NCBI RefSeq assembly: GCF_002946835.1
Contig: NZ_CP026652.1
Span: 2,046,001 to 2,110,000, forward strand
Source of the DNA: Streptomyces dengpaensis
GTDB taxonomy: Bacteria; Actinomycetota; Actinomycetes; Streptomycetales; Streptomycetaceae
Direction of reading: 5' to 3'
Length of the DNA stretch: 64,000 nt
Part shown: piece after piece, positions 37,229 to 58,840 of the stretch
Numbering within the stretch: the stretch's first letter is position 1
Layout of the letters: each line of letters opens with the position of its first letter
Position numbers and translations under genes: made by a program
The notes under the pieces: generated by a model
What the model was told of the DNA's origin: nothing
Seen by the model: only the letters and a program-made list of their open reading frames with translations
Databases searched by the model: none

Positions 37229-40200
37229 GTGGGGCAGAGCATGCGGGACGGCCGGTGGACCACGGTCACCGTCTCCGAGTTCGATCACGAGCGCCGGGGA
37301 CTGGAGGCCATCCGGGAGAAGCTGCCCGACTCCGACCCGTGGCGTGCGTGGTCGAACTTCACCTTCACCGCGAACACCGGACACGTCCGCGAGGTCGACC
37401 TCCTCGTCGTCGCCCCGGGCGGCGTCTACATGATCGAGCTCAAGAACTGGCACGGCTCGGTCGCGGGCGAGAACGGCACCTGGGTGCAGACCACGCCCCG
37501 TGGTCACCGCCGCCCGCACGGCAACCCCCTGCACCTGGTCAACAAGAAGGCGAAGGAGCTCGCCGGCCTGCTCGGCAGGAACGGCAAGCGGGTGTGGGTC
37601 GGCGAGGCCGTGTGCTTCACCGAAGGATCGCTGCGCGTCCGTCTCCCGGCCCACGACCAGAACGGCGTCCATAAAATCGACGACCTGGTGGCGATGCTGA
37701 AGCAGCCGCCGCGCGACGCGCGCCAGCGCATCACCGCGATCGACTCCCGCGAGGTCAAGGCCGCGCTGGAGCGGGTCGGCATCCGGCGCAGCGACGCCGA
37801 GTACAAGGTCGGCCCCTACCTGCTGGAGCGCAAGGCCTTTGACACCGGCCGGACCTGGGCCGACTACTCGGCCCGGCACAGCGAGCTGCCGGAGACCGCC
37901 CGCGTACGCATCTACCTGCGCGAGCGCGGCTCCGAGGCGTCCGTACGGCAGTCCGTGGAGAACGCGGCGCGGCGCGAGGCGGCGGTCCTGCGGCGCTTCA
38001 AGCACACCGGCGTCGTCCAGCTCAAGCAGTACGACCCGTCGGGCCACTCCGCGGGCCCGGCCCTGATCTTCGACTACCACCCGCAGACGCTGCGCCTGGA
38101 CGAGTACCTGCTCCAGTACGGCGGCAGGCTCGACGTCCTCGGCCGCATGGCACTGGTGCGGCAGCTGGCGGAGACGATGCGGTCGGCGCACTCCAGCCGG
38201 ATCTACCACCGCGCGCTGGCCGCCCGCTCCGTGCACGTCGTTCCACGCGCCCGTGGGCCCCGCGGCAAGGCGGTCGGCGAGGAGGCGGCCTGGCTCAGCC
38301 CGCGTCTGGAGATCTCCGACTGGCAGATCGCGACGCACCGCGGCACCGGCAGCTCCGGCCAGGGCATGACGAGGTACGCCCCGACGGCGCTGTCCGCGAT
38401 GCACCTCTCCGACGACGCGGACCCGTACCTCGCCCCCGAGCTGACCGCACTCAACGCCGACCCGGTGTACCTGGACGTGTACGGCCTCGGCGTCCTCACG
38501 TACCTCCTCGTCACCGGCAAGGCCCCGGCCGCGAGCCAGGCGGAGCTGCTGGCCCGGCTGGAGGCGGGCGAAGGCCTGCGCCCCGGCTCGCTGGTGGACG
38601 ACCTGTCGGAGGACATCGACGAACTCGTACAGGCGGCCACCGCCTACCGCCCCGAGCAACGCCTGTCCACGGTCGACGAGTTCATGGAGATGCTGGAGTT
38701 CGTCGAGGACGCGCTCACCGCACCGCCCGCGACGCCGGAGGCACCCGAGAGGGACCCCTTGGAGGCGGCGAAGGGCGACGTCCTCGCCGGCCGCTGGGAG
38801 GTCCTGCGCCGCCTGGGCACCGGCTCCACCAGTCGTGCCTTCCTCGTCCGCGACCTGGAAGCGGAGACCCGCAGGACGCGCACGCTCGCCGTACTGAAGG
38901 TGGCGCTGACCGACAGCCGCGGCGAGATCCTGGCCCACGAGGCCGAGGTGATGGGCCGGCTGCGCCCCGACTCCCGCGTGATCCGCCTCGTCGAACCGGA
39001 GCCGCTGCGCATCGGCGGACGCACGGCCCTGGCGCTGGAGTACGTGGGTGACGAGCGGGAGGAGACGACCGAGGAGGCCGAGTCCGGCGGCAGTCGCACA
39101 CGCCGCCGCGAGGAGACCGTCGCGCGCCAGCTGCGCGAGCGGGGCCGCCTGCCCATGGACCAGCTGGAGGCGTACGGCGACTACCTCTTCGGCGCCGTCG
39201 ACTTCCTGGAGGGCGAGGGTGTCTGGCACCGCGACATCAAGCCGGACAACATCGCGATCCGCGTCCGCCCGAACCGCACCCGCGAACTGGTCCTCATCGA
39301 CTTCTCCCTCGCGGGCTACCCGGCGAAGGACTACGAGGCGGGCACCGACGGCTACCTGGACCCGTTCATCGGCACGCTGACGCGCACCGCGTACGACTCG
39401 CACGCCGAGCGGTACGCACTCGCGGTCACGCTGCACCAGATGGCGTCGGGCGAACTGCCCAAGTGGGGCGACGGCTCGGTCCTCCCGCGCCAGACGGACC
39501 AGGCGGAGTTCCCGCACCCGAAGATCGAGTCGGACGCGTTCGAGCGTCCCATCGCCGACGGCCTGACCTCCTTCTTCAAGAAGGCCCTGCGCCGCGACGC
39601 CGCCCAGCGCTTCCCCGAGCTGAAGCCGATGCGGGACGCCTGGAAGAAGATCTTCCTGGACGCGTCGCAGACGGTGCCGTCCAGCCACCGCCCCTCCCGC
39701 CACCCCGAGGCGAAGGCCGACGAGACCGCCCCCACTCCGGCGGGCCGGGCCGCGATCGCCGAGGCCGAACCGCTCACCGCCGAACAGCAGCGCGACCAGC
39801 TCGCCGAGAACGTCACCCGGGAGACGCACCTGTCCCAGGCGGGCCTCTCCCCCGCCGCCGAGTCCTTCCTCTACGGCCTGGACATCACGGACGTCGGCCA
39901 GTTCCTGGACTACAGCCGCCGCAAACTGCTCAACGCGCCCGGACTCGGCGCCAAGACGCGGGCGGAACTGCAGCGCCGGCAGCGCGAGTGGGGCCAGTTG
40001 CTGCGCGCGGCCCCCGTATCACCGCTGACGCCGCGAGGCCGGGCCGAGGCCGAGGAGGAGCTGGAGCAGCTGACGGGTGCGGAGTCCGCCGTCGCCGGAG
40101 CACTGGCGACCGGCGAGGCGGCCGGCGCCCTGCCCGGCGCGGCCCTGCGCTCGGTGAGCCTCGACGCCCTCGCCACGATCCTCGTCCAGGAGCTGAACAA

Positions 40201-41917
40201 CAACGGCGCCAACCGCGACAAGGTCGAGACCGTACGGCTGCTGCTGCGTCTGCCCAACGAACGCGGCGAGCTGCCCGACATCGGGGTGTGGCCGTTCCAG
40301 AAGGACGTGGCCGACCGGATCGGCCAGTCCGCGCCGCAGGTGTCGCGGCTGATGAAGGAGGAGCGCAAGCGCTGGAAGAAGCACCCGGCGGTGCGGGCGC
40401 TGCGCTCGGAGATCATCGGCCTGCTGGAGGACCTGGGCCGCGTCGCCCCGGCCGCCGAGATCGCGGACGCGCTGGCGTTGCGCCGGGGCACGCAGCTCGC
40501 GGAGCGCGAACAGCGGCGCGCCCTCGCGCTCGCGGCGGTGCGGGCGGTCGTGGAGGTCGAGCAACTCGACCCGGAGACCGCCCAGTTCCAGCACCAGCCC
40601 AACCGCAAGGCGACGGAGGAGTCCCTGGGCGCGGGCCTGCTCGCGCTGGACGTCCGCGAGGCCGACGAGGAGGCGGGCACGCCGGGCGACCCGCCGGACA
40701 CGCCGACGGCGCCGGGTCTGCTGCATTACGCGACGCGCCTGGGCAAGAAGGCCGATGACCTGGCCAAGCTCGACACGCTGCCGACGGCGACGACCGTGCT
40801 CAGCGAGCTGACAGCCTTGGCTCCGCCGCCGGGCACGATCGAGTGGGACGAGCGGCGCCTCGTGGAACTGGCGGCGGCGGCCTCGGTGAACGCGGCGGCG
40901 ACCCCGCGGCTGGAGATATACCCGCGGGACCTGTCCCTGGTGCGGGCGTTGAGACTGACGCAGGCCGGCCTGGTCCGCCTCACGCCGGGCATGCGGGAAG
41001 GCATCCAGCCGGGTCTGACGCCGGACGCCGTCCACGAGCGGGTACGGGCGCGTTTCCCGGAGCTGGTCGTCCCCGACATGCGGGGTGCCTTCACGCACGA
41101 CCTGCCGACCGACGGTGCCCTCACCAAGGCGCTGCGGGAGGCAGGCTTCGATCTGGCGCTCTCGACCCACGAGGACGGGAAGACGCTGCGCTATCTGCCG
41201 ACGCGGATGGACAGCGCGTCCAGCTACGTGACGACGCGCGCCGGGCGCCATGCGACGGACGTGGGCGCGGTGACGCGGTACTCCGACGACCCGACGCTGG
41301 CGGGGGCGGTGCGGGCGGAGGAACAGCTCGCCGCGTCGTCGCGCCGGGACGGCTACCGGGTGCTGACGGTACGGGCGGGACTGTCCCGGCGTGCGGTGGA
41401 GCAGCTGGGCCGGGTGGACCGGACCGGGGCCGAGGTGGTGTCGGTGACGGAGCTGTTCCTTGAGGCCATGCACGGGCTGGTGCCTCCGGGGACCAAGCCG
41501 ACGTGGGAGACGCTGCTGAAGGCCGACGTGGCGGAGCCGGGTTCGCGGGGTGCGGTGAAGTTCGCGGAGTACGCGCGTACGGCTTGGGGCGCGCTGGAGC
41601 CGCGGGTGCGGGAGCTGCTGGGCGGCGCTGGGGCTGGGGCTGGGTTGCGTCCTGTGCTGCTGACGGACGCGGCCGTGTTCGCGCGGTACGACGCGATGGG
41701 CGTCCTGGACCGGCTGGCCGAGGTCGCGCGGCAGGGCGGGCGCGGGCTGTGGCTGCTGGTGCCGCAGGGCGACCCGGCGCGCGAACCGAAGCTCGGGCCG
41801 GTGGCGGTGCCGTACCAGGCCGGCCTGGGCGAGTGGATCGAACTTCCGGACTCGTGGGTGAACAACTCCCACCGGTCCGGCGCGGGTGAGGGAATGACCG
41901 AGGGAGACGACAAGTGA
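37229..41917 (+). CDS. pglW: PglW, BREX type 2 serine/threonine protein kinase
   Basis: A 1562-residue protein. Order: NERD domain (about 20-130, 'REVDLLVVAPGGVYMIELKN'); a first kinase-like domain whose catalytic loop reads YHRALAARS (His327-Arg328-Ala329, Asp lost); a second kinase domain with G-loop GTGSTSRAF, Lys in AVLKV, catalytic His667-Arg668-Asp669 in HRDIKPDN and metal motif Asp691-Phe-Ser instead of DFG; a helix-hairpin-helix domain like the RpoA C-terminus (about 878-925); a sigma-region-4-like HTH ('WPFQKDVADRIGQSAPQVSR', about 1020-1050); then a long C-terminal region. PglW is the kinase of the phage growth limitation system. Its stop overlaps pglX (GTGA). Confidence 0.95.
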   Translation: MGQSMRDGRWTTVTVSEFDHERRGLEAIREKLPDSDPWRAWSNFTFTANTGHVREVDLLVVAPGGVYMIELKNWHGSVAGENGTWVQTTPRGHRRPHGNPLHLVNKKAKELAGLLGRNGKRVWVGEAVCFTEGSLRVRLPAHDQNGVHKIDDLVAMLKQPPRDARQRITAIDSREVKAALERVGIRRSDAEYKVGPYLLERKAFDTGRTWADYSARHSELPETARVRIYLRERGSEASVRQSVENAARREAAVLRRFKHTGVVQLKQYDPSGHSAGPALIFDYHPQTLRLDEYLLQYGGRLDVLGRMALVRQLAETMRSAHSSRIYHRALAARSVHVVPRARGPRGKAVGEEAAWLSPRLEISDWQIATHRGTGSSGQGMTRYAPTALSAMHLSDDADPYLAPELTALNADPVYLDVYGLGVLTYLLVTGKAPAASQAELLARLEAGEGLRPGSLVDDLSEDIDELVQAATAYRPEQRLSTVDEFMEMLEFVEDALTAPPATPEAPERDPLEAAKGDVLAGRWEVLRRLGTGSTSRAFLVRDLEAETRRTRTLAVLKVALTDSRGEILAHEAEVMGRLRPDSRVIRLVEPEPLRIGGRTALALEYVGDEREETTEEAESGGSRTRRREETVARQLRERGRLPMDQLEAYGDYLFGAVDFLEGEGVWHRDIKPDNIAIRVRPNRTRELVLIDFSLAGYPAKDYEAGTDGYLDPFIGTLTRTAYDSHAERYALAVTLHQMASGELPKWGDGSVLPRQTDQAEFPHPKIESDAFERPIADGLTSFFKKALRRDAAQRFPELKPMRDAWKKIFLDASQTVPSSHRPSRHPEAKADETAPTPAGRAAIAEAEPLTAEQQRDQLAENVTRETHLSQAGLSPAAESFLYGLDITDVGQFLDYSRRKLLNAPGLGAKTRAELQRRQREWGQLLRAAPVSPLTPRGRAEAEEELEQLTGAESAVAGALATGEAAGALPGAALRSVSLDALATILVQELNNNGANRDKVETVRLLLRLPNERGELPDIGVWPFQKDVADRIGQSAPQVSRLMKEERKRWKKHPAVRALRSEIIGLLEDLGRVAPAAEIADALALRRGTQLAEREQRRALALAAVRAVVEVEQLDPETAQFQHQPNRKATEESLGAGLLALDVREADEEAGTPGDPPDTPTAPGLLHYATRLGKKADDLAKLDTLPTATTVLSELTALAPPPGTIEWDERRLVELAAAASVNAAATPRLEIYPRDLSLVRALRLTQAGLVRLTPGMREGIQPGLTPDAVHERVRARFPELVVPDMRGAFTHDLPTDGALTKALREAGFDLALSTHEDGKTLRYLPTRMDSASSYVTTRAGRHATDVGAVTRYSDDPTLAGAVRAEEQLAASSRRDGYRVLTVRAGLSRRAVEQLGRVDRTGAEVVSVTELFLEAMHGLVPPGTKPTWETLLKADVAEPGSRGAVKFAEYARTAWGALEPRVRELLGGAGAGAGLRPVLLTDAAVFARYDAMGVLDRLAEVARQGGRGLWLLVPQGDPAREPKLGPVAVPYQAGLGEWIELPDSWVNNSHRSGAGEGMTEGDDK

Positions 41918-44900
41918 TCGACCGCAAGGCCCTGTTGGAGGACCTGAAGAAGCAGGTCAAGGCGGTCGAGACCGACCTCGGGAAACAGGTGAAGGCCGTC
42001 GCGGAGGTCGGCTCGCGGCTGAAGGGCGAGTACGAGAAGGCGCGCAAGCTGGGGCGTACGGCGGCGACGTGGAACTCGTGGCTCGACGAGCGCGTCACGC
42101 AGGTCGCCGTGGCGTGGGTGCTGGGGACTGTCTTCGTACGCTTCTGTGAGGACAACGGGCTGATTCCCGAGCCGTACGTCACGGCTCCGGGCGACGACCG
42201 GCGTGAGCTGGCGCTCGCCCGCTTCGACGACTACGTGTCGAGGTCCCAGGACCCCACGTACCGGGGCTGGCTTGAGCTGGCGTTCGCGGAGCTGGGGTCG
42301 GGCCAGGCGGGTCGGCTGCTGTTCGACCGCCGGCACAACCCGCTGTACCAGATCCCGCTGTCGCATGACGGGGCGCGGGAGTTGGTCGAGTTCTGGCGGG
42401 GGCGGGACGAGTCGGGTGCGCTGGTGCACGACTTCACCGACCCGCTGGAGGAGGACGGCGACGGCACGCGGGGCTGGGACACGCGGTTCCTGGGTGACCT
42501 GTACCAGGACCTGAGCGAGGCGGCTCGTAAGACGTACGCGCTGCTTCAAACTCCGGAGTTCGTCGAGGAGTTCATCCTCGACCGGACAATGGATCCGGCG
42601 GTACGGGAGTTCGGCTACGAGGGCTTGAAGATGATCGACCCGACTTGTGGGTCGGGTCACTTCGTGCTGGGGGCGTTCCGGCGGTTGGTTCGGCTGTGGG
42701 GGGAAGGGCAGCCGGGGCGCGATGTTCATGAGCGGGTCCGGGCGGCGCTGGATTCGGTGCACGGGGTTGACCTGAATCCGTTCGCTGTGGCTATTGCGCG
42801 GTTCCGGTTGCTTGTTGCGGCTATGGCGGCCAGTGGGGTGACCACTATGGCTGGGGCCGGGAAGTACGAGTGGCCGATTCATTTGGCGGTGGGTGACTCC
42901 CTCATCAAGCATCGGCACACGCAGGGCAACCTCTTCGATGGGCTGGAGGAGGAGGGGGCCGATGAGCTTGCGGAGTTCAAGTACGAGACTGAGGATGTGC
43001 ATGAGCACCCGGATATTTTGCGGGCGGGGCGGTATCACGTGGTGGTGGGGAATCCGCCTTATCCCACGGTGAAGGACAAGAGGCTCAATCAGCTTTACCG
43101 GGATCTGTACGACGCGTGCGCGGGGAAGTATGCGCTGTCGGTGCCGTTCGCTCAGCGGTTCTTCGAGCTGGCGAAGGTGGGGGGCGCCGATAGCGGGCTC
43201 GGGTACGGCATGGTCGGCCAGATCACTGCTAGCTCATTCATGAAGCGCGAGTTCGGAAGAAGACTCATCGAAGACTATTTCGCGCACAAGGTAGAACTGA
43301 CAGAGGTAATTGACACCTCGGGAGCATACATCCCGGGACACGGAACCCCCACCGTGATGCTGATTGGAAAGCCACGTGGAGGGAGCGGGCGATCCAGCAC
43401 TGTGCGGACGATTCGAGGGGTTCTTGGCGAGCCGTCAAGCCCTAAAGTTGCCGAAAATGGGCTCGTCTGGCGCGCAATCGTCGAGCACATCGACGAGCCA
43501 GGGGCACCAAGCAAGTGGGTATCAATTGGCGACCTTGATCGAGACCGATACTTCGGACAACATCCGTGGATGTTGGCGGATGGTAGTTTGGAAACTGTTG
43601 AAACCTTGCAGGCCGCATCGCAGCAGCCGTTGAGTTCTGTCGCGGAGGCGATTGGATCGGCCGCGATCACCGGAGATGACGAGCTGTACGTCTACCCGCA
43701 CCCAACGGCAACTTGGGCGGAACGCAACGTCTCCCCGATGCGCCCATTTGTTGAAGGTGACCAAGTACGCGACTGGGTTTGCGACCCAGCGGCATCCTGC
43801 ATCTTTCCGGTCGGGGTTTCAACTGAAGAACGCGAACGTATCGAAGCTAGCATGCTGTGGCGCGGGCGCAAGATACTGCGCAGCACGCTCTACTTCGGTG
43901 AGACAAAGGAACAGCGTGGAATGGCATGGTCAGACTATGCCTTCTCTAAGCGCGATCGACTCAACTCACCTCGTCTTCTTTCCTTCTCCTTTGTCGCAAC
44001 ACACAATCACTTCGTACTGGACCGCGGAGGACGGGTATTCAATAAGTCCGCCCCAGTGATTAAGTTGCGGGATGGAGCGAACGAGGAGGGGCATCTGCAA
44101 CTGCTCGGCACCCTTAATAGCTCCACCGCCGGCTTCTGGATGAAGCAGGTCAGCCACAACATGGGCAGCACCGTCGATTCCAAAGGGGCCCGCCAGAGCA
44201 CCCTCCCGTTCGATGACTTCTACCAGTTCAACAGCACCCCCATGTTGGGCTTCCCTCTCCCTGCGACTCACCCCACCCTGCTAGCAACTGCCTTGGACGA
44301 CCTGGGACGAGGTCTCTCGGCCACCACCCCCTCGACCCTCGTCACCGAGGCGTCCCCCACAGCCACTGCACTCCGCAAGGCCAGCGCCGCCTGGCACTCT
44401 AGGCGCGCCCGCATGATCGCCCTGCAAGAGGAACTCGATTGGCAGGTCTATTCGCTCTACAACCTGCACCCCGATGACCTCCGCGTCTCCGAGGACCCCG
44501 CCTCCCCCGACATCCCCGAACTCAACCTCGGTGAGCGGGCATTCGAGATCGTGCTCGCGCGGCGCGTGGCCGCCGGGGAGGCCAGTGACGAGTGGTTCAA
44601 GCGGCACGGGTCCACGCCCATCACGGAGATCCCCGACCACTGGCCCGCCGCCTACCGCGAGGTCGTCCAGAAGCGGATCGACGCCATCGAGTCGAGCCGG
44701 GCCATCGGCATGGTCGAGCGCCCCGAGTACAAGCGGCGCTGGGCAACCGAGGGTTGGGACGCTCTCCAGGAGAAGGCCCTGCGGGCCTGGCTGCTCGATC
44801 GGATCGAGAAGCGTGAGCACTGGTACGACGAGAACGGCATGCCCACCCTCGTCACACTCTCCCGGCTCACCGACACCCTCTCCCGCGATGAGGACTTCGT

Positions 44901-45537
44901 CTCCGTCGCCAAGATCTACGCTCCTCGTAAGGAACTTCCCACCGTCGTCGCCGAGTTGATGACCGACGAGCACGTGCCGTTCCTCTCCGCACTGCGCTAC
45001 AAGCCCTCCGGCCTGAAGAAGCGCGAGGACTGGGAGCACGTCTGGGAACTCCAGCGTCAGGAGGACGCCGCCCCCGACGAGCCTGCCAAGAAGAAGATCC
45101 GGGACTCCATCCCCGTGCCGCCGAAGTACACCTCGGCCGACTTCCTGCGCCCCTCCTACTGGCGGGCGCGCGGCAAGCTCGACGTGCCCAAGGAGCGCTT
45201 CATCTCGTTCGGGAACGCCAACGTCCCCACCCCCGACCTCTACGGCTGGGCCGGCTGGGACCACCGCGAGCAGGCGTACGCCATCGACACGTATATCGCC
45301 ACCCGCGAGGCCATGAGCACGGAGGAGGTGACGCCGTTCCTCGCCGGGCTCCTGGAGCTTCAGCCCTGGCTGGAACAGTGGCACAACGAGGTCGACCCGA
45401 CCTTCGGCGTCTCCCCTGCCGCGTTCATCAAGGGTGACCGGCAGATGGCCCAGGGCGAACACGGCCTCACAGATGAACAGCTGAAGGCCTGGCGTCCGGC
45501 CGCCGCGACTCGCGGACGCCGTACCGCTAAGAACTAG
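41914..45537 (+). CDS. pglX: PglX, BREX type 2 adenine-N6 DNA methyltransferase
   Basis: A 1207-residue protein. SAM-binding motif I is 'DPTCGSGHFVLGAF' (Pro243 onward) and the catalytic motif IV NPPY is at 380-383, as in N6-adenine methyltransferases that mark host DNA in BREX. The preceding 240 residues are helical. The specificity region, about residues 430-783 (43.2-44.27 kb), has clearly lower GC than both ends: sample 60-base rows at 43261 and 43921 hold 28 and 30 G/C, against 45 and 43 at 42661 and 44641. G-runs of six at 42698-42703 and 43179-43184 could slip. It is translationally coupled to pglW and followed by a strong terminator. Confidence 0.95.
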   Translation: MIDRKALLEDLKKQVKAVETDLGKQVKAVAEVGSRLKGEYEKARKLGRTAATWNSWLDERVTQVAVAWVLGTVFVRFCEDNGLIPEPYVTAPGDDRRELALARFDDYVSRSQDPTYRGWLELAFAELGSGQAGRLLFDRRHNPLYQIPLSHDGARELVEFWRGRDESGALVHDFTDPLEEDGDGTRGWDTRFLGDLYQDLSEAARKTYALLQTPEFVEEFILDRTMDPAVREFGYEGLKMIDPTCGSGHFVLGAFRRLVRLWGEGQPGRDVHERVRAALDSVHGVDLNPFAVAIARFRLLVAAMAASGVTTMAGAGKYEWPIHLAVGDSLIKHRHTQGNLFDGLEEEGADELAEFKYETEDVHEHPDILRAGRYHVVVGNPPYPTVKDKRLNQLYRDLYDACAGKYALSVPFAQRFFELAKVGGADSGLGYGMVGQITASSFMKREFGRRLIEDYFAHKVELTEVIDTSGAYIPGHGTPTVMLIGKPRGGSGRSSTVRTIRGVLGEPSSPKVAENGLVWRAIVEHIDEPGAPSKWVSIGDLDRDRYFGQHPWMLADGSLETVETLQAASQQPLSSVAEAIGSAAITGDDELYVYPHPTATWAERNVSPMRPFVEGDQVRDWVCDPAASCIFPVGVSTEERERIEASMLWRGRKILRSTLYFGETKEQRGMAWSDYAFSKRDRLNSPRLLSFSFVATHNHFVLDRGGRVFNKSAPVIKLRDGANEEGHLQLLGTLNSSTAGFWMKQVSHNMGSTVDSKGARQSTLPFDDFYQFNSTPMLGFPLPATHPTLLATALDDLGRGLSATTPSTLVTEASPTATALRKASAAWHSRRARMIALQEELDWQVYSLYNLHPDDLRVSEDPASPDIPELNLGERAFEIVLARRVAAGEASDEWFKRHGSTPITEIPDHWPAAYREVVQKRIDAIESSRAIGMVERPEYKRRWATEGWDALQEKALRAWLLDRIEKREHWYDENGMPTLVTLSRLTDTLSRDEDFVSVAKIYAPRKELPTVVAELMTDEHVPFLSALRYKPSGLKKREDWEHVWELQRQEDAAPDEPAKKKIRDSIPVPPKYTSADFLRPSYWRARGKLDVPKERFISFGNANVPTPDLYGWAGWDHREQAYAIDTYIATREAMSTEEVTPFLAGLLELQPWLEQWHNEVDPTFGVSPAAFIKGDRQMAQGEHGLTDEQLKAWRPAAATRGRRTAKN
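43179..43184 (+). repeat. G6 homopolymer in pglX, candidate slippage site
   Basis: Six G residues encode part of KVGGAD just before the specificity region; another G6 is at 42698-42703. In S. coelicolor, phase variation of Pgl is reported to come from a G-tract in pglX. These runs are short, so strong phase variation is uncertain. Confidence 0.4.
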
Positions 45538-45635: not shown

Positions 45636-45845
45636 TCAGGCGCCCAACTCGCCACGCCTCACGGCCGTTACGAACGAGAACCAGCCATCAGCGGCGAACG
45701 TGATCACCGGCCCGTGCGGGTTCTTACTGTCGCGCACAGGGACGGCGGTAACGAAGTCGTCGGAAACCTCCACGCACTCGCCGCCGTCCTGGTTGCTGTA
45801 GCTGCTCTTGCGCCAAGTAGCGAAGGTCAGGTCGAGGGATCGCAC
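45636..45845 (-). CDS. DUF397-domain small protein, partner of the adjacent regulator
   Basis: A 69-residue protein that is a single DUF397 domain: 'TWRKSSYSNQDGGECVEVSD', then 'VPVRDSKNPHGPVITF' and 'WFSFVTAVRRGEL'. DUF397 proteins are very common in Streptomyces and nearly always pair with an HTH regulator of the WhiJ/Scr1 type. In some cases they act as a toxin-like partner or ligand of it. The GTG start overlaps the end of the upstream regulator gene by 19 bp, supporting co-translation. Its job in the BREX island is unknown. Confidence 0.85.
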   Translation of the reverse strand: MRSLDLTFATWRKSSYSNQDGGECVEVSDDFVTAVPVRDSKNPHGPVITFAADGWFSFVTAVRRGELGA

Positions 45846-48133: not shown

Positions 48134-51100
48134 ATGGCCCAGGCCCAGCAGCCGCCCCTGCTCCGCGATGTCATCGACATCAAGGAGTCCATCTCGACCT
48201 CGGACTTCGTGCTCCAGCTCTCCGAGGCGACGACCCCCGAAGGCGCCGAACGCGCGCTCAAGGACTATGTGGTCACCGAGCGGCTGCTGGAGAACTTCGA
48301 CGAGGCGCTGGGGCTCATCAAGACGGCTCTCGACGGGCACGCCTCCAAGGCGGCCTACCTGCACGGCTCGTTCGGCTCCGGTAAGTCGCACTTCATGGCC
48401 GTGCTGCACGCACTGCTCAGCGGCAGGTCGGCCGCCCGTGCCGAGCAGGCCTTCGACCCGCTGTTCACCAAGCACGAGTGGCTCACCACGGACGGGAAGA
48501 GGTTCCTGCTCGTGCCGTACCACATGCTCGGCGCGAAGGCGATGGAGCAGCGGGTCCTCGGTGGATACGTCTCCCATGTCAAGAAGCTGCACCCCGACGC
48601 GCCCACCCCGCAGGTGTACCGGACCGACGCGCTCTTCGAGGACATCCGTGCGCTGCGGGCCCGTCACGGCGACGAGTTCATCGTCAACGGGCTCGCGTCC
48701 CCCGACGGGGCGGACGCCGACGCCGAGGACGACGAGTGGGGCGAGTCCTTCGCGTGGGCCCCTGCCCTCCTCGACACCGCCCTGGCCGCCGAGGAGATCC
48801 ACGAGTCCGGGCAGGCGCTGAACCTCGTCAGCCCGTCCACCCCGGCCGAGCTGCGCGCGCGTCTCGTCCAGGACGCGAGCACCAATCTCCTGCCCGGCTT
48901 CGCCAAGAACGCCGCCGAGAACGAGCACGGGTTCATCTCGCTCGACGCCGGTCTGTCCGTGATCGCGGCACACGCCAAGGAGTTGGGCTACGACGGGCTG
49001 ATCCTCTTCCTCGACGAGCTGATCCTCTGGCTGGCCACCCTCATTCACGACCAGAAGTTCGTGGGGCGCGAGGCCGGGAAGATCACGAACTTTGTGGAGG
49101 GGGCCGACGCGCGCCGGGCCATTCCGGTCGTGTCGTTCATCGCCCGGCAGCGTGATCTGCGTGAGTTGGTGGGTGAGGAGTTGTCCGGTGCCGCCGAGGC
49201 TTCCATTCAGGACACCCTCAGCCAGGCCTCCGGGCGGTTCGACAAGATCACGCTGGAGGACCGCAACCTTCCGCAGATCGCCCACGCCCGTCTGCTCCAG
49301 GCCAAGAGCCCCGAGGCGGCCACGCAGATCAACACCGAGTTCGAGAAGACCCGCAAGGTCCGCCAGGAGGTGTGGGACACGCTGCTGGGGTCCGATCGGG
49401 GCACCGACGGGGTCGGGGCGGACGAGGAGAGCTTCCGGCTGACGTACCCCTTCTCGCCCGCGTTCATGGACACCCTTGTGCACGTGTCGTCGGCGCTCCA
49501 GCGGAACCGGACCGGTATGAAGCTCATGGGCCAGCTGCTCGCCGACCACCGGGACGAGCTGCGGCTCGGGGACCTCATCCCCGTGGGAGATCTGTACCCG
49601 CTGATCACCGCCGGGGGCGACAAGCCGTTCACCGACAGCCTGAAGGTCGTCTTCGAGGCCGCCGACAAGTTGTACCGGACCAAGCTGCGCCCGTACCTGC
49701 TCGCCACGTACAACGTGTCCGAGGAGGACGTCGAGCAGTACACGCACCGCGGCCCCGACAGCATCACCGACCCCGAACTGCGCGGCCGGGTGAAGAGCTT
49801 CGTCGGCGACAACCGCATCGTCGGCACGCTGCTTCTGTCCGCGCTGGCGCCGAGCGTGCCCGCGCTTTCCGACCTCACCGTCCGGCGGCTGTCCGCGCTC
49901 AACTACGGCTCTGTCGTCGCCCCGATTCCGGGGCGCGAGTACGGCATCCTGAAGAACAAGATCGCCGAGTGGGCGGGCCGGTTCCCGGAGATCAAGGAGA
50001 CCGGCACCGACGCCAACCCGGGCGTGCGGCTCGAACTGTCCGGCGTGGACGTCGACTCCGTCATCGCCAACGCCCAGGTCAACGACAACCCGGCCAACCG
50101 GCAGGCGCTGGCCAAGCGGCTGCTGGCTGAGGAACTGGGCGTTGAGCAAGGGCAGTTGTCGACCCACCTCGACTTCGTGTGGCGGGGCACCCAGCGCAGT
50201 GCCGAGGTCGTGTTCGGGAATGTCGCCGACGAGGACGAGCTGCCCGACCACGACCTGACGCCCCAGGAGGAGGGGCTGTGGCGGATCGTCATCGACCTGC
50301 CGTACGACGAGAGCGAGTACGGGACCGCCGAGGACGTCGACCGGATGCGGCGGCTGCGGGAGCGGCAGCAGGGCGAGCGGTCGCGGACCGTCGCGTGGCT
50401 GCCCGCGCACCTGTCCGCGCAGCGGTACGCGGACTTCCGGCGGCTGGTCGTCATCGACAAGGCGCTCGACGACGACCAGCGGTTCAACGGCCAGTACGCC
50501 GGCCACCTCAACGCCGACAACCGGGCCCGCGCGAAGGGCCTGTTGGAGACCCAGCGGGAGTCGCTGCTCAGGAACGTCAAGGCCGCCTTCAAGCAGGCGT
50601 ACGGCCTCGCCGACAAGAAGGAGTCCGACGTCGAGCTGGGCTTCTTTGACCACCTGCAGTCGCTGCGCGAGGTCGACGGGCTCACGCTGTCCTTCGGGCA
50701 CTCGATGCACGAGGGACTGCGGCACATCGCGCGCAGGTTGCTGGCGAGCCAGTACCCCGACCATCCGGACCTGGCCGCCGACGACCCCGAGTGGACGATG
50801 AAGCCGGCCGACGCCCGCAAGGTGTTCAGCCACGTACGGGACGCCGCCGAGGCCCGCGACGGGCGCACCGAAGTGCCCGGTCCGGACCGGAAGTTGATGC
50901 AGCGGGTCGCCGGGCCGCTGCGACTGGGGCAGCAGAAGGAGGCCTACTTCGAGCTGTCGCTGTACTGGGCCGACCACTTCCGCAAGCTGGCGCGCGAGCG
51001 TGGCATCACCGGCGACCTGAGCCTGATCACGCTGACCGACTGGACGGACCAGCCGAACCCGCGTGGCCTGCCCGACTTCCTCGCCCGGCTCGTCGTCGCG

Positions 51101-52045
51101 TCGTTCGCGGAGATGGACGACCGGGTGTGGGTGCGCGGCGGTATGCCGCTCGACCCGGCGCCCGAGCTGACGCAGATCAAGGACCACGACGCGCTGCGCA
51201 GCCAGCCGCTGCCGTCCGAGGAGGACTGGGAGGCGGCCCGGCAGCGGTTCGAGGCGATCTTCGGGGAGAAGGCGCCCACGCTGCGCCGTGGCCGGATCGT
51301 CAACCAGTTCGCCCGCCAGATCGTCGACCTCGCCCGCACCTACCAGGACGCGGCCGCCGATCTCGTACGGCAGTTGGAGACGCACGCCGGTTTCCTGCGG
51401 CTGGACGAGACCGACGAGACGGGCCGCCTCGCCCTCGCGCGGCGCTCCGTCGACCTGCTGAAGGCGCTGACGCAGGCGGCCGGGCAGGGCGCGGCCGGTG
51501 CGAAGAAGACGGTGGAGGCGCTGGCGTCGTTCGGCCTGGGGCAGGTCACCGCCGACCGCTACGGCACGTCCGTCAAGCAGGCCCGGACGGTGGCGCAGGC
51601 GCTGGACTCGGCGTCCTGGACGACGCTGGAACTGGCGTCGAACGAAGGGCCCGAGGGGCTCGCCCTGCTGGACTCGCTGCGGAACGTGGCGCAGAGCGAC
51701 CAGCGGACCTACCCGCTGCACGAGGCCCTGCCCCGCACCCAGCGCGAGGTCCTCGCCCTGGTGAAGCGGAACCGGGCCGCCGCCCAGCCGGTGCCGCCCG
51801 CCCCGCCGCGGCCCGGCCCGGGGGACGTGTCGCTGTCCACGGACACCAGCCACCCGCCGGTGCCCGAGATCCCCGTGCAACTGTCCCCGGCGGCGGGTGC
51901 GTCCGGTACCGGCCGGACCCGCCGGTCCGGCGGCGGTCGTACGACGGCAGCGCGTGCCGCCGCCGAACTCCAGGCTGAACTGGCCGAGTTGGCAGCGCAG
52001 GAGCCGGGCGCCACGATCGAGATCACCTGGCGGGTCGTCGACTGA
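48134..52045 (+). CDS. pglY: PglY, BREX type 2 large ATPase (BrxC-like)
   Basis: A 1303-residue AAA-type P-loop protein. Walker A is GSFGSGKS at 78-85 and Walker B is '[12 protein letters not shown]' with Asp294-Glu295. These sit in an N-terminal ATPase module, followed by a long helical body with coiled-coil-like stretches (near 700-800, rich in Arg/Glu/Gln) and a Pro/Gly-rich tail about 1225-1265. The frame '[14 protein letters not shown]' near the N-terminus is typical of PglY. It is essential for the Pgl phenotype in S. coelicolor. AAGGAG lies 12 nt before the ATG. Its stop overlaps the pglZ start (TGATG). Confidence 0.95.
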
Positions 52046-55011
52046 TGAGCACCACCGTCACCGCTGCCGAGGCGGCCGGGCCGATCGCCATCCGGCTGAA
52101 CCTCGCGACCGTCACGCAGTACCTGTCGTCCCAGACGTCGCTGGCCGCCTCCCTCCGGGACGGCGACAAGCGGCGGGTGGTCCTGCTGCGCTCCGAGCCT
52201 GTGTGGGACGGGCCGGCTGATCCGGTGTGGGGCGACGGGCACACCGCCCGTATCGCCGCTGCCCCGTCCCCGCTGGCCGTGCACGAACTGGTCCTGGACC
52301 ATCTCGCCGGGCGGCCGGCGCGGTCCGGCGGCGGGACCGGTCCGGCCGTCCTGGTGGTGCTGACCGACCGGGAGCAGAGCGAGCTGGACCCGGCGGTCCT
52401 GGCCCGCGTCCACAAGCAGCGCATCAACAGCCTGGACAGCTGGGACGTGGTCCGCGAGGCGTTCGGGGCCAGGCAGGTCGACCAGCGGCTCCGGGACGCC
52501 AACTGGGCCGCCGAGGCCCTGCTCGACGCGACTCCGCCGGGCGGCTGGCCATCGCTCGCCGGGGGCATCCTGTCCCGGCGTACCGCCCTGTCCGCGCTGG
52601 CGATGCGGCGGCTGCGGCTGGGCGGGTACGGCACCGACGCGGACCGTTCGCCGGGCGCCGCGGCGGGTGCGCGAGTGGGTGCTCCGGCGGGTGGGACGCT
52701 CGACCCGCACTCCCTGCTGCGGTGGTCCCTCACGCCTGGCGGTCCCGAGCTGCTGCTCGAACTGCGCGGTCCGGAACGCGCGGGGCTGGCCGAGTTCCTC
52801 GGTGAGGAGGACCAGGCCGGCCTCACCGGCCGGGCGCTGCTCGCCCTGGTGGAGGCCGAGCACGGCGTGGACGCGGTCGCCTTCGGGCTGGTCTGCGGCG
52901 CGCTGTGGCTGCACACGCCCGCCGACGCCGACGCCTACCGGGCGCGGGGCCGCGCCGAGCGCTGGTTCGGGGAACAGCCGCCGGCGACCGGCGAGCAACT
53001 CGATTCCCTGGCCTCCGTGTTCGCGCGGGCCTGCGAGGAGTACGTCGGCACCCTGCTCGCCACTGCGGCCCGCCGCACGGGTTCCGACGCGGCCTCGGAG
53101 GACGCGCGTGAGGCGCGCCGGGTCAGCGACACCGTGCTGGAGCGCGCCGCGGCTCTGGTGCGGCAGTTCGGTGCCGAGGCGGCCGGGCGGACCAGCCCTC
53201 TGCTGCCCGCGGGTCTGGAGGCGCGGTTCACCGCCGTGGGGCACGCCCTGAGGTCCGGCAGACTCGACGCCGTGGCGGAGGCCGTCCGCGCGCTGGGCGA
53301 CCACAAGCGTGCCGACGGCCCCGACGCCCGCGCCCGCATCGAGCGAGCCCGCATGGGCAGGCGGCTGGCCGAGTGGCTCGCCGGTGACCCGGCCGTCGCC
53401 TGCGAGACGGTCGCGGCTGCCCTAGAGCGCCAGATCGCCGAGACCGGCTGGGTCGACCAGGCGCTGGAGCACATCGAGGCGGGCGGCGACCCCGACGCCG
53501 TACTGAAGTCCGCCTACGACGCGCTCGCCGCGCGCGTGCGCGAGCGGCGGCACGAGATCGACCGTCATTTCGCCCGCGCCCTGGCCACCTGGACGGCGGC
53601 GGGCACGCAGCCCGGCTCCATGCTCACGGTGGAGACCTTCCTCGACCGGGCCGTGAAGCCCGTCGTGCGCGCGGGCGGCGACCGGCGCGTGCTGCTCCTC
53701 GTGCTGGACGGGATGAGCGCGGCCATCGCGAGCGAGCTGGCCGAGGAACTGCGCGCCTCCTGGGCGGAGTTCGACCCACTGCCGGACGGCGAGCCGCGCC
53801 GCCGGTCCATGGCCGCCGCCCTGCCCACCCTCACGGCCGTGTCCCGCACCGCGCTGCTGACCGGCGCCCTGATGAAGGGCTCGCAGGCGGACGAGAAGCG
53901 GCTGTTGCCCACGCTGAAGCTGTGGGGCGGGGCACCGGCGGCCGTGTTCCACAAGGACGACCTGCGGGCCGCCAGCGCCGGGGAGACCTTCGGCCCGGCC
54001 CTGACCGATGCGCTCACCGACGGCCGTACGCATGTCGCCGTGGTCCTCAACGCCATCGACGACCGGCTGGCGAAGGAGCAGAAGCTCGGCGACGGCACCT
54101 GGCTGCCCGAGCACATCCCGGGTCTGCCGGACCTGCTGCGGGTCGCCGTCGAGGAGGGCATGGCCGTCCTCGTCACCAGCGACCACGGCCACGTCGTGGA
54201 CCGGCACGGCGCGAAGGCCGAGGCGGTGGCGCCCGGCTCCGCCCGGCACCGCGCACCCGGCGGACCGCTCGGGCCCTCCGAGGTCGAGCTCACCGGCCCC
54301 CGGGTGGTGTGGCCGGAGCCCGGCGCGTCGATCGTCGCCCTGTGGGACGCCGACTCCCGCTACACGGCACTCAAGGCGGGTTACCACGGCGGCGCCTCCC
54401 TCGCCGAGTTCGCCATCCCGGTCCTGGCCTTCCTGCCGTTCGGCGCCACACCGCCGAAGGAATGGCGGGAACTGGGCGACCAGCGGCCGTCCTGGTGGCA
54501 CCTGGACGAGAGGGCCGCCGTGCCGGTCGCCGCCCGCCCGGAGCGCGCGGCACCCGCGAAGAGGCCGACCCGGTCGAAGCAGGCCATCAAGGCACAGGCG
54601 GAGATCGCCGAGACGCACGACTCCCTCTTCGACGACTCCCAGGTGCCGAGCGCGCCCTCTCCCGCCCCGGCCGCCGCGGAACAGGCGGCGCCGGCCGACT
54701 CCCTCGTCACGCGCCTCTTCGCCTCGGACGCGCTGCACAGCCAGGCCGAGCTGCTGGCGCGCAAGCCGCCAGAACGGGAGATGGTCAAGTTCCAGAAGGC
54801 GGTCACCGCGCTGCTCGATGCCGGCGGCACCCTGCCCGTGACGGCGCTGGCGCAACGCGCCGGATATCCGGCGACGCGGGCGGACGGCTTCGCCGCGGTG
54901 CTCCGCCAGCTGCTCAACTACGACGGCGTACAGGTGCTGGAGACGCTGCCGGACGGGCGCACCGTGCGGCTGCATCCGGGGCTGCTGCGGGAGCAGTTCG
55001 GGCTCGGCTGA
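52045..55011 (+). CDS. pglZ: PglZ, alkaline-phosphatase-superfamily core protein of BREX
   Basis: A 988-residue protein and the defining component of BREX systems. The PglZ domain, about 545-800, has the metal-site motifs '[20 protein letters not shown]' (Asp555) and '[14 protein letters not shown]' (Asp713, His714, His716), as in the alkaline phosphatase fold. The N-terminal half is helical and of unknown fold. Residues about 825-870 form an Ala/Pro linker before a small winged-helix-like end. In S. coelicolor PglZ is proposed to be a toxic effector balanced by PglX. It is translationally coupled to pglY and followed by two hairpins. Confidence 0.95.
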
Positions 55012-55019
55012 CCCACTGC

Positions 55020-55271: not shown

Positions 55272-56606
55272 GTGAGCACGACCAGACCTTCCACGGCCTC
55301 TCCCGCCTCCGCGGCACGTCGGCGCGCGGTCATCGACGCGCTGCGCCGCGGGGCCGTTCCCGAGAGCGGGCTCGATCTGCTCGCCACCGGACTCGACCGG
55401 TTCGAGTCCGCGCTGGACGCCGAGTTGCAGGCGGTCGCCTCCGGGTCCTCGGTGTTCAAGGCGGTGCGGGGCGAGTACGGATCCGGTAAGACGTTCTTCA
55501 CCCGCTGGCTCGGGGAGCGCGCCAAGCGTCTGGGCATGGCCGTCTCGGAGATCCAGATCTCGGAGACGGAAACCCCGCTCCACCGGCTGGAGACCGTCTA
55601 CCGACGGCTGACCGAGCGCCTCGCCACCGCCGGCTTCCCGCCGAGCGCGCTCAGGCCCGTCGTGGACGCCTGGTTCTACGCGCTGGAGGAGGACGCCCTC
55701 GCGGCCGGGGCGGGCGAGGACGACCTGGCGGAGGAGGCCGACCGGCTGCTGACCGCCCGCCTGGCGGAGGTCTCGCGGCAGGCACCGGCCTTCGCCACCG
55801 CCCTGCGCGGCTACCGCACCGCGCTCGCGCAGGGCGACGAGGCGACCGCCTCGGCCGTACTGGCGTGGCTCGGCGGCCAGCCGCACGTGGCCGCGTCGGC
55901 CCGGCGGTCCGTCGGAGTGCGCGGCGACCTGGACCACTTCGGCGCCCTCGGCTTCCTCCAGGGCCTGCTCACCGTGTTGCGGGACTCCGGACACCGGGGG
56001 CTCTTCGTCGTCCTGGACGAGGTCGAGACCCTCCAGCGGGTCCGCTCGGACGCCCGCGACAAGGCGCTCAACGCCCTGCGCCAGCTCATCGACGAGGTGC
56101 ACTCCGGCCGCTTCCCCGGCCTGTACCTGGTCATCACCGGCACGCCCGCTTTCTACGACGGTCAGCAGGGCGTCCAGCGGCTCGCCCCGCTCGCCCAGCG
56201 GCTGGCCACGGATTTCTCCACCGACCCCCGGTTCGACAATCCGCGCGCCGTGCAGCTGCGCCTGCCGGGCTTCACTCAGGAGTCCCTCACCGGCCTGGGC
56301 GTGACCATCCGTGACCTGTACGCGGCCGGTGCCGACGCGCCCGAGCGGATCACATCCCTCGCCGACGACGCATACGTGGCCGATCTGGCCCGGGCGGTCG
56401 GGGGTGCACTCGGCGGAAAGGCCGGGGTGGCGCCACGGCTGTTCCTCAAGAAGCTCGTCGGCGACGTCCTCGACCGCGTCGACCAGTTCGCCGACTTCGA
56501 CCCGAGGAAGCACTACAGACTGACCGTGAGCAGCGGCGAACTCACTGACGTGGAAAGGAATTTCGCCACAGCCGATGCGGCCGACGAGATCGAGCTGGAC
56601 GTATGA
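55272..56606 (+). CDS. brxD: BrxD, BREX type 2 ATP-binding protein
   Basis: A 444-residue P-loop ATPase of the BrxD family. Walker A is GEYGSGKT at 67-74 and Walker B 'LFVVLDEVETL' with Asp249-Glu250. Typical phrases are 'VRGEYGSGKTFFTRWLGERA', 'ISETETPLHRLETVYRRL' and 'PGLYLVITGTPAFYDGQQGV'. Its exact role is unknown; it accompanies pglWXYZ and brxHI in type 2 BREX loci. The GTG start follows a TG-rich leader with GGGGTGAGAG upstream. ATGA overlap with brxHI indicates coupling. Confidence 0.93.
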   Translation: MSTTRPSTASPASAARRRAVIDALRRGAVPESGLDLLATGLDRFESALDAELQAVASGSSVFKAVRGEYGSGKTFFTRWLGERAKRLGMAVSEIQISETETPLHRLETVYRRLTERLATAGFPPSALRPVVDAWFYALEEDALAAGAGEDDLAEEADRLLTARLAEVSRQAPAFATALRGYRTALAQGDEATASAVLAWLGGQPHVAASARRSVGVRGDLDHFGALGFLQGLLTVLRDSGHRGLFVVLDEVETLQRVRSDARDKALNALRQLIDEVHSGRFPGLYLVITGTPAFYDGQQGVQRLAPLAQRLATDFSTDPRFDNPRAVQLRLPGFTQESLTGLGVTIRDLYAAGADAPERITSLADDAYVADLARAVGGALGGKAGVAPRLFLKKLVGDVLDRVDQFADFDPRKHYRLTVSSGELTDVERNFATADAADEIELDV

Positions 56607-58840
56607 GCGCGGACGGAACAGACGACAGCGCCGCAGCGCCGCGGCCGATCGGGGAGGAACCCGTCGACCGCCTGGACCCGGTGGACCGCCTGGACCCGGT
56701 GGACCGTCTGGACCCGGTGGACCGCCTGGACCCGGTCGTCCTTCACCACGTCGTGAACACCCTGGGATGGCCCGACCTGCGCCCCCTCCAGCGAGCCGCG
56801 ATCGCGCCGCTGATGGACGGTGAGGACGCCGTGCTGCTCGCCCCCACCGCGGGCGGAAAAACCGAGGCGGCCTGCCTGCCGCTCCTGTCGGCCATGTCCC
56901 AGCACCGCTGGTCCGGCACGTCGGTCCTGTACCTGTGCCCCCTCAAGGCACTGCTCAACAACCTCGTCCCACGCATCGACACCTACGCACAGTGGCTGGG
57001 GCGCCGGGCGGCCCTGTGGCACGGGGACACCAAGGAGTCCCAGCGGCGGCGCATCCGCACCGAGCCCCCGGACATTCTGCTCACGACGCCCGAGTCGCTG
57101 GAAGCGATGCTCATCGGTGTGAAGACCGACCACGCCCACCTGCTCGGTCAGGTACGGGCGGTCGTGGTCGACGAGGTACACGCCTTCGCCGGCGACGACC
57201 GCGGCTGGCACCTGTTGGCCGTACTGGAACGTCTGCAAAGGGTGGTGGGGCGCCCCATCCAGCGAGTCGGCCTCTCGGCAACCGTGGGCAACCCACGACA
57301 CCTGCTCACCTGGCTCCAGGGCTCCGGGGCGGGACAGCGCCCGGGCACGGTCGTCGCGCCCGAACCCTCCGCCGTACCTGCCGACGCCACCGCGGGGCAC
57401 CCACCCGGCGCCGTGGAACTCGACTACGTCGGCTCGCTCGGCAACGCCGCCAAGGTGATCGCAGCCCTGCACAAGGGCGAGAAGCGGTTGGTGTTCTGCG
57501 ATTCGCGGGTGCAGGTCGAGCAACTGGGCGCGGCGCTGCGCGAACGAGAGGTGACGGTGTTCCTGTCGCACGCCTCCCTGTCGGCGGACGAACGGGCGCG
57601 CTCGGAGCAGGCCTTCGCGGAGGCGCGCGACTGCGTCATCGTCTCGACGTCCACGTTGGAGCTGGGCATCGACGTGGGCGACCTGGACCGCGTCATCCAG
57701 ATCGATGCGCCCGCCACTGTGGCGTCGTTCCTCCAACGCATCGGGCGGACCGGCAGACGCCCCGGCTCGACTCGCAACTGCCTGTTCCTGGCCACCACCA
57801 AGGACACCTTCCTCCAGGCTGCGGGTCTTCTGCTGCTGTGGGGACGCGGCTGGGTGGAGCCGGTGACGGCGCCGCCCGAGCCACGGCATCTGGTGGCTCA
57901 GCAATTGCTGGCCGTGACGCTCCAACAGCACAAACTCGGGGATCAGTTGTGGGCCGACCAGTGGAACGGCCTTGCACCTTTCAACCGTTCGGCGGCCCCC
58001 GTCCTGCGGCACTTGGTCTCCGAGGGCTTCCTCGACACCGACAGCGGCCAGCTTTTCATCGGGGAGGCCGCCGAGCGCCGTTTCGGCCGCCGCCACTTCA
58101 TGGGACTGACCGCCTCCTTCACCGCGCCTCCCCAGTTCACCGTCCTGTCCGGCCGCAGCGAGATCGGCCGGATGGACCCGACGGTCCTGACGGAGGAACG
58201 TCCCGGGCCCCGGCGCCTGCTGCTCGCCGGGCGCAGTTGGCAGGTGACGTTCATCGACTGGGGACGCAAACGGGTGTTCGTCGAGCCCGTCGACAGCGGA
58301 GGCGTGGCCAAGTGGACGGGTGGCTCGCCGGCGGGGCTCTCGTTCGCGCTCGTGCGCGCGATGCGCGACGTACTGCTGGGAGCGGAACCGCCCGTACCCC
58401 TCACGCGCAGGGCGGAGGCGTGCCTCGCCGAATGGCGCTCGCAGGAGGCCCCGCACATGGTCCACCCCGGCGGGACGCTGGTGACCCGGTCCGGAACGGA
58501 TGTCCGCTGGTGGACCTGGGCCGGCTATCGGGCCAACGCGACCCTCACGGCAACCCTTTCGCCGATCACCGACCCGGTACAACGTCCGACGGACTGCTTC
58601 GTGCGTCTGCGGGAGGATCTGACCCCGGCCATGTGGCACATCCACCACACATCCGCTGTCGACGCGGAGTTCCTCGTCCTCCCGGACGTCGACCCTCGTG
58701 CGGTCAACGGCCTGAAGTTCTCCGCCGCGCTGCCCCAGAGGCTGGCGGTCGCGACGGTGGCTGCGCGCCTCGCGGACTTCACGGGCGCCCGGAGCGTGCT
58801 GCGGGAGCCGGTGCGTTGGCAGCTGGGGACTGCGCAGTGA
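56603..58840 (+). CDS. brxHI: BrxHI, BREX type 2 DEAD/DEAH-box helicase (Lhr-like)
   Basis: A 745-residue superfamily 2 helicase. Motif I is APTAGGKTE (80-88), motif II DEVH (190-193), motif III 'LSATVGNP', motif VI '[14 protein letters not shown]'. The C-terminal half is Lhr-type. Residues about 21-44 are four perfect VDRLDP hexapeptides encoded by 18-bp tandem DNA repeats. The helicase presumably remodels DNA or DNA-bound BREX complexes. ATG overlaps the brxD stop. No clear terminator follows before 59160. Confidence 0.93.
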   Translation: MSADGTDDSAAAPRPIGEEPVDRLDPVDRLDPVDRLDPVDRLDPVVLHHVVNTLGWPDLRPLQRAAIAPLMDGEDAVLLAPTAGGKTEAACLPLLSAMSQHRWSGTSVLYLCPLKALLNNLVPRIDTYAQWLGRRAALWHGDTKESQRRRIRTEPPDILLTTPESLEAMLIGVKTDHAHLLGQVRAVVVDEVHAFAGDDRGWHLLAVLERLQRVVGRPIQRVGLSATVGNPRHLLTWLQGSGAGQRPGTVVAPEPSAVPADATAGHPPGAVELDYVGSLGNAAKVIAALHKGEKRLVFCDSRVQVEQLGAALREREVTVFLSHASLSADERARSEQAFAEARDCVIVSTSTLELGIDVGDLDRVIQIDAPATVASFLQRIGRTGRRPGSTRNCLFLATTKDTFLQAAGLLLLWGRGWVEPVTAPPEPRHLVAQQLLAVTLQQHKLGDQLWADQWNGLAPFNRSAAPVLRHLVSEGFLDTDSGQLFIGEAAERRFGRRHFMGLTASFTAPPQFTVLSGRSEIGRMDPTVLTEERPGPRRLLLAGRSWQVTFIDWGRKRVFVEPVDSGGVAKWTGGSPAGLSFALVRAMRDVLLGAEPPVPLTRRAEACLAEWRSQEAPHMVHPGGTLVTRSGTDVRWWTWAGYRANATLTATLSPITDPVQRPTDCFVRLREDLTPAMWHIHHTSAVDAEFLVLPDVDPRAVNGLKFSAALPQRLAVATVAARLADFTGARSVLREPVRWQLGTAQ
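56663..56734 (+). repeat. Four 18-bp tandem repeats inside brxHI (VDRLDP)4
   Basis: Units at 56663, 56681, 56699 and 56717 read GTSGACCGYCTGGACCCG with at most two differences between copies. They keep the frame, so copy number can change without inactivating the gene. They precede the helicase core. Confidence 0.9.

Follow-up and report, generated by a model that had tools for sequence, protein, structure and literature searches.

The closest described relative of the locus analysed here is the phage growth limitation (Pgl) system of Streptomyces coelicolor. Papers are cited by PMC accession. As in our locus, pglWX and pglYZ are separate units in S. coelicolor, where they form two operons 6 kb apart (PMC4365076). 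S. coelicolor also has an XRE/DUF397 pair, SCO6629/SCO6630 (PMC10364602), and such a pair is present in the window, the 64,000-nucleotide stretch of Streptomyces dengpaensis DNA that we analysed. By its locus number near pglX, SCO6627 (PMC4365076), the S. coelicolor pair probably lies in the pglX-pglY gap. Its overexpression made no appreciable difference on R2YE (PMC10364602), and the main text of that paper holds no word starting with pgl, phage or BREX. The two systems differ in a non-defining trait: S. coelicolor pglX undergoes G-tract phase variation, whereas the window pglX, like all 18 BREX genes of this genome's three BREX copies, has no run of seven or more equal bases.

PglX/BrxX of type 1 BREX (E. 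coli, Salmonella) is likewise a methyltransferase with a separate recognition domain, at about 12% identity. PglW, BrxD and BrxHI are additional components of type 2 relative to type 1 (PMC12839542). BrxR of type 1 BREX is, like the candidate XRE regulator here, a DNA-binding regulator encoded with the BREX genes (PMC9122589), but it belongs to the WYL family and ours to XRE/DUF5753. The families are unrelated and the genes sit in different places. WhiJ-BldB-type pairs of Streptomyces consist of an XRE regulator and a small partner, with direct repeats in a divergent promoter, as in the window (PMC10294661, PMC10364602). The pairs studied in these papers act on development and antibiotics, unlike the putative BREX role considered here.

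The six-gene core and its setting

The core genes and a repeat within brxHI are as follows.

37229-41917, plus strand: PglW (PADLOC PglW, 1548 bits; Pfam NERD at residues 19-131, kinase at 524-795)
41914-45537, plus strand: PglX, N6-adenine methyltransferase with DUF7008 (PADLOC PglX, 1650 bits)
48134-52045, plus strand: PglY/BrxC-like ATPase (PADLOC BrxC/PglY, 1464 bits; GSFGSGKS at 78, ILFLDE at 290)
52045-55011, plus strand: PglZ (PADLOC, 892 bits; both conserved aspartate motifs, DGMS at 555 and DHGH at 713)
55272-56606, plus strand: BrxD ATPase (PADLOC, 678 bits; Pfam BrxC_BrxD, 3.3e-140)
56603-58840, plus strand: BrxHI helicase (PADLOC, 1073 bits; APTAGGKT, DEVH, QRIGRTGR)
56666-56736, plus strand: 18-bp tandem repeat, 3.9 copies, in frame in the brxHI N-terminus, giving VDRLDP repeats (Tandem Repeats Finder)

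A preliminary description of this DNA had claimed that all six type 2 components are intact and proposed an HMM search for PglW, PglX, PglY, PglZ, BrxD and BrxHI as a check. That search bears the claim out. The ORFs are full length, and each has the expected BREX component as its top PADLOC model, matched over nearly its whole length. PADLOC and Pfam place the tripartite core of PglX, PglY/BrxC and PglZ in the same locus as PglW, BrxD and BrxHI. The three translationally coupled pairs it had described also hold, with overlaps from the ORF coordinates of GTGA (pglW/pglX), TGATG (pglY/pglZ) and ATGA (brxD/brxHI). Loss of catalytic motifs had been named as a further thing to look for, and the motifs are kept in every enzyme of the window copy: NPPY, DHGH, Walker A and B in PglY and BrxD, the kinase HRDxxxxN, DEVH and QRIGRTGR. 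PglX has DPTCGSGHF at 242 and NPPY at 380. PglW runs from a NERD nuclease-like domain through a pseudokinase (the first kinase-like domain, with HRA replacing HRD) and an active-looking second kinase (HRDIKPDN at 667) to a C-terminal region. The NERD-pseudokinase-kinase order is that given for type 2 BREX (PMC12839542). No gene looks broken.

From these sequence features we judge, with a probability of roughly 0.85, that the locus at 37229-58840 encodes a type 2 BREX/Pgl anti-phage system that is complete and looks intact. As a system the six-gene set is ordinary, a member of type 2 BREX by its defining sequence features. Within the window, Rfam gave no match and ARAGORN found no tRNA. The start region of brxHI carries four in-frame copies of the 18-bp VDRLDP unit; BrxHI of the other two copies in this genome, b and c, is shorter overall by 27 and 35 residues.

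In the working scheme, PglX would read a specific DNA site via its recognition segment and methylate adenine. PglW (a kinase), PglY, BrxD and BrxHI would sense foreign DNA and act on it, while PglZ would restrain PglX and may cut DNA. The Pgl three-state model differs in having phage DNA marked in a first round and restricted in a second, in place of host methylation as in type 1 BREX. It draws on the S. coelicolor Pgl phenotype, for which it was put forward, and on antibodies that detected no N6-methyladenine in that host (PMC4365076). PMC12839542, however, finds convincing evidence for it lacking and favours a BREX-like mechanism. We regard the three-state model as possible, at somewhat less than even odds.

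This genome carries three type 2 BREX operons, all complete, with the window copy at C1:2083229-2104840 of 8.71 Mb. With at most four candidates scored per genome, three BrxD genes occur in this one genome of 392, and two occur in 4. We dropped G161 as a two-BrxD genome, which is really one gene split over two contigs. We also dropped the notion that three copies are exceptional: about 0.7 genomes with three are expected (Poisson, 93 genes in 392 genomes), so the state is rare but not beyond chance. All six genes of copy c (L018+L019, G000:C1:6162075-6180507) are full length, and the PglZ of this copy reads TGMT and AHGH at the two motifs, lacking both conserved aspartates. A solitary PglX-like methyltransferase gene (L083:13112-16969; 1206 aa from the homologous start, PADLOC PglX 1375 bits) lies about 10 kb upstream of copy c and is followed by a gene for a RecD-like helicase. 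Copy b has DinG and pPIWI genes directly downstream (L017:9446-15882), another known defence pair. A type 2 BREX in G122 (L042/L171) looks decayed: its PglX is short, at 1046 aa, and its PglY frame has just 875 aa. PglX of G362 and G380, two genomes of the same genus as the window, matches that of S. omiyaensis and S. dioscori in every residue, in line with the genus Streptomyces.

The preliminary description had the system inserted in a conserved backbone. This stands for the left side, where aconitase and an HTH/MurA-like gene (34604-36283) are found; all 12 relatives compared have the MurA-like gene, and 11 of them have aconitase beside it. It does not stand for the right side, which is variable. 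The FAD oxidase there has a best identity of 52% in the 30 other genomes searched. Within the 7-13 kb that follow the MurA-like gene, few predicted ORFs are common among the 12 relatives, and those just in L223, L228 and L231. No clean insertion with two conserved ends was found in the 12 relatives compared. The site is a variable spot beside a conserved gene pair, differing from strain to strain. G016 has another type 2 BREX about 9 kb from the same MurA-like gene. The ORF at 36814-37065, just upstream of pglW, is short and may be the cut-off start of a longer gene; its reading as an NYN-type RNase was dropped, as it has no Pfam match and one weak match in 30 other genomes.

The putative recognition segment of PglX

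Pfam places an Eco57I-type methyltransferase domain at residues 282-469 of PglX and DUF7008 at 834-1203. Between the two lies the following segment.

43336-44388, plus strand: PglX residues 475-825, hypervariable segment read as the target recognition domain, sharpest at about 43561-44010 (identity, GC3, trees)

We read it as the recognition domain from its position between the methyltransferase domain and DUF7008, where one is expected. The five relatives nearest to the window by their flanks share 80-88% identity with it over residues 1-465 and 836-1195 and only 43-47% over residues 478-825. In the segment core (residues 550-699), scored in blocks of 25, the same five reach 16-56%. Median identities over 55 PglX rows (1485 pairs) are 0.69 for the N flank, 0.44 for the segment and 0.62 for the C flank, and the segment median is 0.48 among the 544 pairs with an N flank above 0.75. 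The alignment leaves out L042, L048, L052, L053 (the window itself) and partial PglX of unfinished contigs (G008). Two duplicate rows, L060 (of L035) and L058 (of L041), were kept out of the trees and retained in the identity and GC3 counts.

The flanks and the segment give different trees. By its flanks the window groups with L072, L079, L073, G011 and L070 (support 98). By its segment it groups with L054-L057 and L059 (support 100), and, the window aside, no row is common to both clades. Five AU tests were run on groups picked post hoc from the trees, and each rejects its group. On flank data they reject the segment clade (p = 2.8e-9) and the window with L054 (p = 9.2e-97); on segment data they reject the flank clades of 6 (p = 7.9e-83) and of 10 (p = 7.1e-9) and the window with L072 (p = 5.9e-4). 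PglX is a mosaic, with methyltransferase and DUF7008 parts on one side and a recognition segment of different history on the other. Its target site has probably been exchanged, and such an exchange would give the system a new one.

The segment could instead have diverged in place under strong selection, with no exchange between lineages. Identity to the window segment still declines with flank identity (Spearman 0.61, 54 rows), as divergence in place would have it. No donor was caught either, since in none of the 1485 row pairs does the segment exceed both flanks in identity by more than 0.05. All 55 rows (proteobacteria included, two rows being duplicates) have a lower GC3 in the segment than in the flanks, with a median difference of 0.22. 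This dip could come from steady exchange or, in keeping with divergence in place, from a constraint. Against this stand the strongly supported conflict between the segment and flank trees and the rejections in all five AU tests (p 9e-97 to 6e-4, post hoc groups). We consider divergence in place very unlikely, and an exchanged segment remains our reading of PglX. The idea that the whole of pglX is foreign, taken from its low GC, was dropped; the dip is confined to the recognition segment and is the same in other loci examined.

The predicted structure of PglX is of moderate confidence (pLDDT 70), falling below 50 through most of 556-697, and a model of the segment alone is poor (pLDDT 57). The best Foldseek matches of the PglX model are E. 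coli BrxX and Salmonella PglX. The segments of the three PglX copies in this genome are only 39-52% identical to one another, so their target sites are likely to differ.

The gene pair between pglX and pglY

A 2.6-kb insert, absent from the preliminary description, separates pglX from pglY. It contains a DUF397 gene, an XRE/DUF5753 gene and small ORFs.

45636-45845, minus strand: DUF397 small protein (Pfam PF04149, 1.7e-22), starting 99 bp behind the pglX stop, antisense to pglX
45827-46669, minus strand: XRE/DUF5753 (WhiJ-like) DNA-binding regulator (Pfam PF19054, 4.2e-53; HTH_31, 1.5e-10)
46779-46794, plus strand: direct repeat GTGGAA-N3-GTGGAA, putative operator, upstream of the regulator
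46954-47516, plus strand: two small overlapping ORFs of 99 and 87-88 aa, divergent from the regulator, no Pfam family
47649-47894, plus strand: small ORF of 81 aa, weakly DUF6247-like (Pfam 0.0036, below cut-off)

An HTH plus DUF5753 gene followed by a DUF397 gene is the arrangement of an XRE-DUF397 (WhiJ-like) pair. The regulator start, TTG at 46669, was picked from relatives beginning MPQRR; the open frame extends to 46846. The two overlapping ORFs have homologues in 12 and 15 pglX-pglY gaps, the window's own counted, and the 81-aa ORF has one other, in L148.

Junctions were measured in 79 same-genus systems, from a set of 80 in which PglY of L158 lies beyond the 20-kb stretch. The set leaves out segment or BrxD rows without a same-contig partner and weak or partial rows. 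Nine systems (L150-L158) were covered in part, and the pglZ-brxD gap was measured in 71. pglY and pglZ are at most 30 bp apart in 76 of 78 systems. The pglX-pglY gap is at least 400 bp in 63 of 79, the pglZ-brxD gap is at least 700 bp in 27 of 71, and some systems have pglW-pglX inserts. The system seems to be built of the three coupled pairs as units, with cargo inserted between them. Among pglZ-brxD cargo, typed from one representative each, GmrSD_N proteins are commonest (17 systems), ahead of CBS-domain proteins (16) and AbiU (6). The GmrSD_N and CBS-domain genes are antisense to the operon in all cases (e.g. L143:170-2002, L113:1990-3054), and no PADLOC family matched the CBS-domain representative. 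A HATPase_c_2 protein, which we take to be AbaA-like, occurs in 32 pglX-pglY gaps that also hold the XRE-DUF397 pair (e.g. L150:1149-1712).

A DUF397 gene is present in 60 of the 63 pglX-pglY gaps of at least 400 bp (confirmed by Pfam in 60 of 60), together with an XRE/DUF5753 regulator in 58 of 63. This genome has 31 Pfam DUF397 matches, which fall at about 28 places in its 8.71 Mb; at that rate, 355 kb should contain about 1.1. Taking the DUF397 gene closest to pglX, 34 systems have it antisense, and in 32 of these, as in the window, no more than 130 bp separate it from the pglX stop. The other 26 have it in sense orientation, in many cases about 1.5 kb behind pglX. The pair also occurs at other junctions: it abuts pglW in G372, G234 and G007, which have no full pair in the pglX-pglY gap, and lies in the pglW-pglX gap in S. 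flaveolus and Actinomadura nitritigenes. The stretches examined around BREX in Acrocarpospora, Nocardia, S. anandii and the proteobacterial systems hold no pair. In the places examined, a complete pair is missing in 18 of 79 systems, copies b and c of this genome included, so the pair is not indispensable.

Hitch-hiking would explain the pair as common mobile XRE-DUF397 genes of Streptomyces landing by chance where insertions are tolerated. DUF397 genes are as plentiful as the genome rate above indicates, the pglX-pglY and pglZ-brxD junctions accept varied cargo (up to about 15 kb between pglX and pglY), and two non-BREX paralogues of this genome fall inside the window's regulator clade. Still, 60 DUF397 gaps against 1.1 expected is too many even for a tenfold local rate, assuming independent systems, which they are not; shared descent inflates the count. 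In a tree of 68 BREX-linked regulators with 24 paralogues of this genome (24 of 29 paralogue places gave a row; two pairs of rows are identical), the BREX-linked regulators fall in several clades. Well-supported branches force at least 4 changes, against 9 on the drawn tree and 21 in shuffles. Counting these 4 events alone (at least 4 against 1.1 expected) gives p of about 0.03, which leaves more room for chance. Placement speaks against chance: the 3 pairs found in 21 loci examined upstream of pglW, mostly systems without a pglX-pglY pair, all lie within about 2 kb of pglW, and the pglZ-brxD gaps (72.8 kb) hold none, though just 0.2 would be expected there. We find hitch-hiking doubtful. The several regulator clades mean that pairs were recruited repeatedly or replaced by unrelated ones, which suggests that the position favours such a pair.

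Among open papers, we found none that joins DUF397 with BREX or DUF5753 with phage. A word search of the main text of a 2026 BREX survey (PMC12839542) found no DUF397, DUF5753 or XRE. PMC4239341 takes up DUF397-HTH, as a toxin-antitoxin pair, and a phage-defence region as separate topics, which its passages do not join.

A possible switch on the pglYZ side

The direct repeats in the regulator's own promoter are a feature of WhiJ-like pairs, and their operator role is putative. Among 12 promoters aligned from the same regulator clade, 9 carry GTGGAA-N3-GTGGAA without mismatch (L110, with no start recognised, was left out). These nine are the sole exact matches across the BREX spans, which total 1.08 Mb, and none occurs in the 419 kb taken from other loci. 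In the window, the mismatch-free repeat occurs only in the regulator's own promoter. With up to three mismatches there are 11 matches against 3.2 expected, a number reached in 0 of 100 shuffles; the ten others all lie inside genes, of which pglX holds two and pglZ and brxHI one each. Genome-wide, the 8 matches with at most one mismatch are barely above the 6 of a reversed-pattern control. Two of the eight are just upstream of two non-BREX paralogues of the window's regulator clade.

The divergent side of the regulator promoter reads into the two overlapping small ORFs and onward to pglY on the same strand. Direct repeats in the divergent promoter of its own gene are bound by WhiJ9, an XRE regulator of the same kind, which mediates activation of the gene on the other side (PMC10294661). 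From this precedent and from the divergent side reading toward pglY, we think that the pair may set pglYZ expression. Acting at its own divergent promoter, which points toward pglY-pglZ, the pair would be a WhiJ-type switch by which the pglYZ half could be set apart from the pglWX half. In the window scan the repeat, at up to three mismatches, is absent before pglW, pglY and brxD, which keeps control of pglYZ at the level of a hypothesis. No conserved block or operator stood out upstream of pglY. We put the WhiJ-type switch forward tentatively, with confidence below one half.

The pair might otherwise be a toxin-antitoxin-like or back-up effector module that would keep the locus stable or kill the cell upon failure of BREX. 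XRE-DUF397 has been proposed as a type II toxin-antitoxin (PMC7159879, PMC4239341), with observational support claimed in the latter. Other cargo of the pglX-pglY and pglZ-brxD gaps is effector-like (GmrSD_N, AbiU and a Schlafen helicase, from one representative each), and effector-like cargo is described for BREX in general (PMC12839542). Overexpression of 14 S. coelicolor pairs argues the other way, as the pairs were regulators and none behaved as a toxin-antitoxin (PMC10364602). The operator-like repeat in the pair's own promoter is compatible with either reading. A toxin-antitoxin or effector role seems to us unlikely.

The switch reading extends to the family. PglX is toxic without PglZ in S. 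coelicolor (PMC4365076). The pair could be an integral component of actinobacterial type 2 BREX that has gone unrecognised so far: a pglWX/pglYZ switch supplied by several regulator lineages, which would balance the toxic PglX against its restraint PglZ or turn the system on at infection. We hold this wider reading, too, as a possibility somewhat short of an even chance.

An exchangeable recognition segment predicts different methylated sites in close relatives and in the three systems of this genome. Type 2 BREX dates back to the first BREX phenotype described, Pgl. If the pair is a switch, control of its toxic methyltransferase becomes genetically testable.
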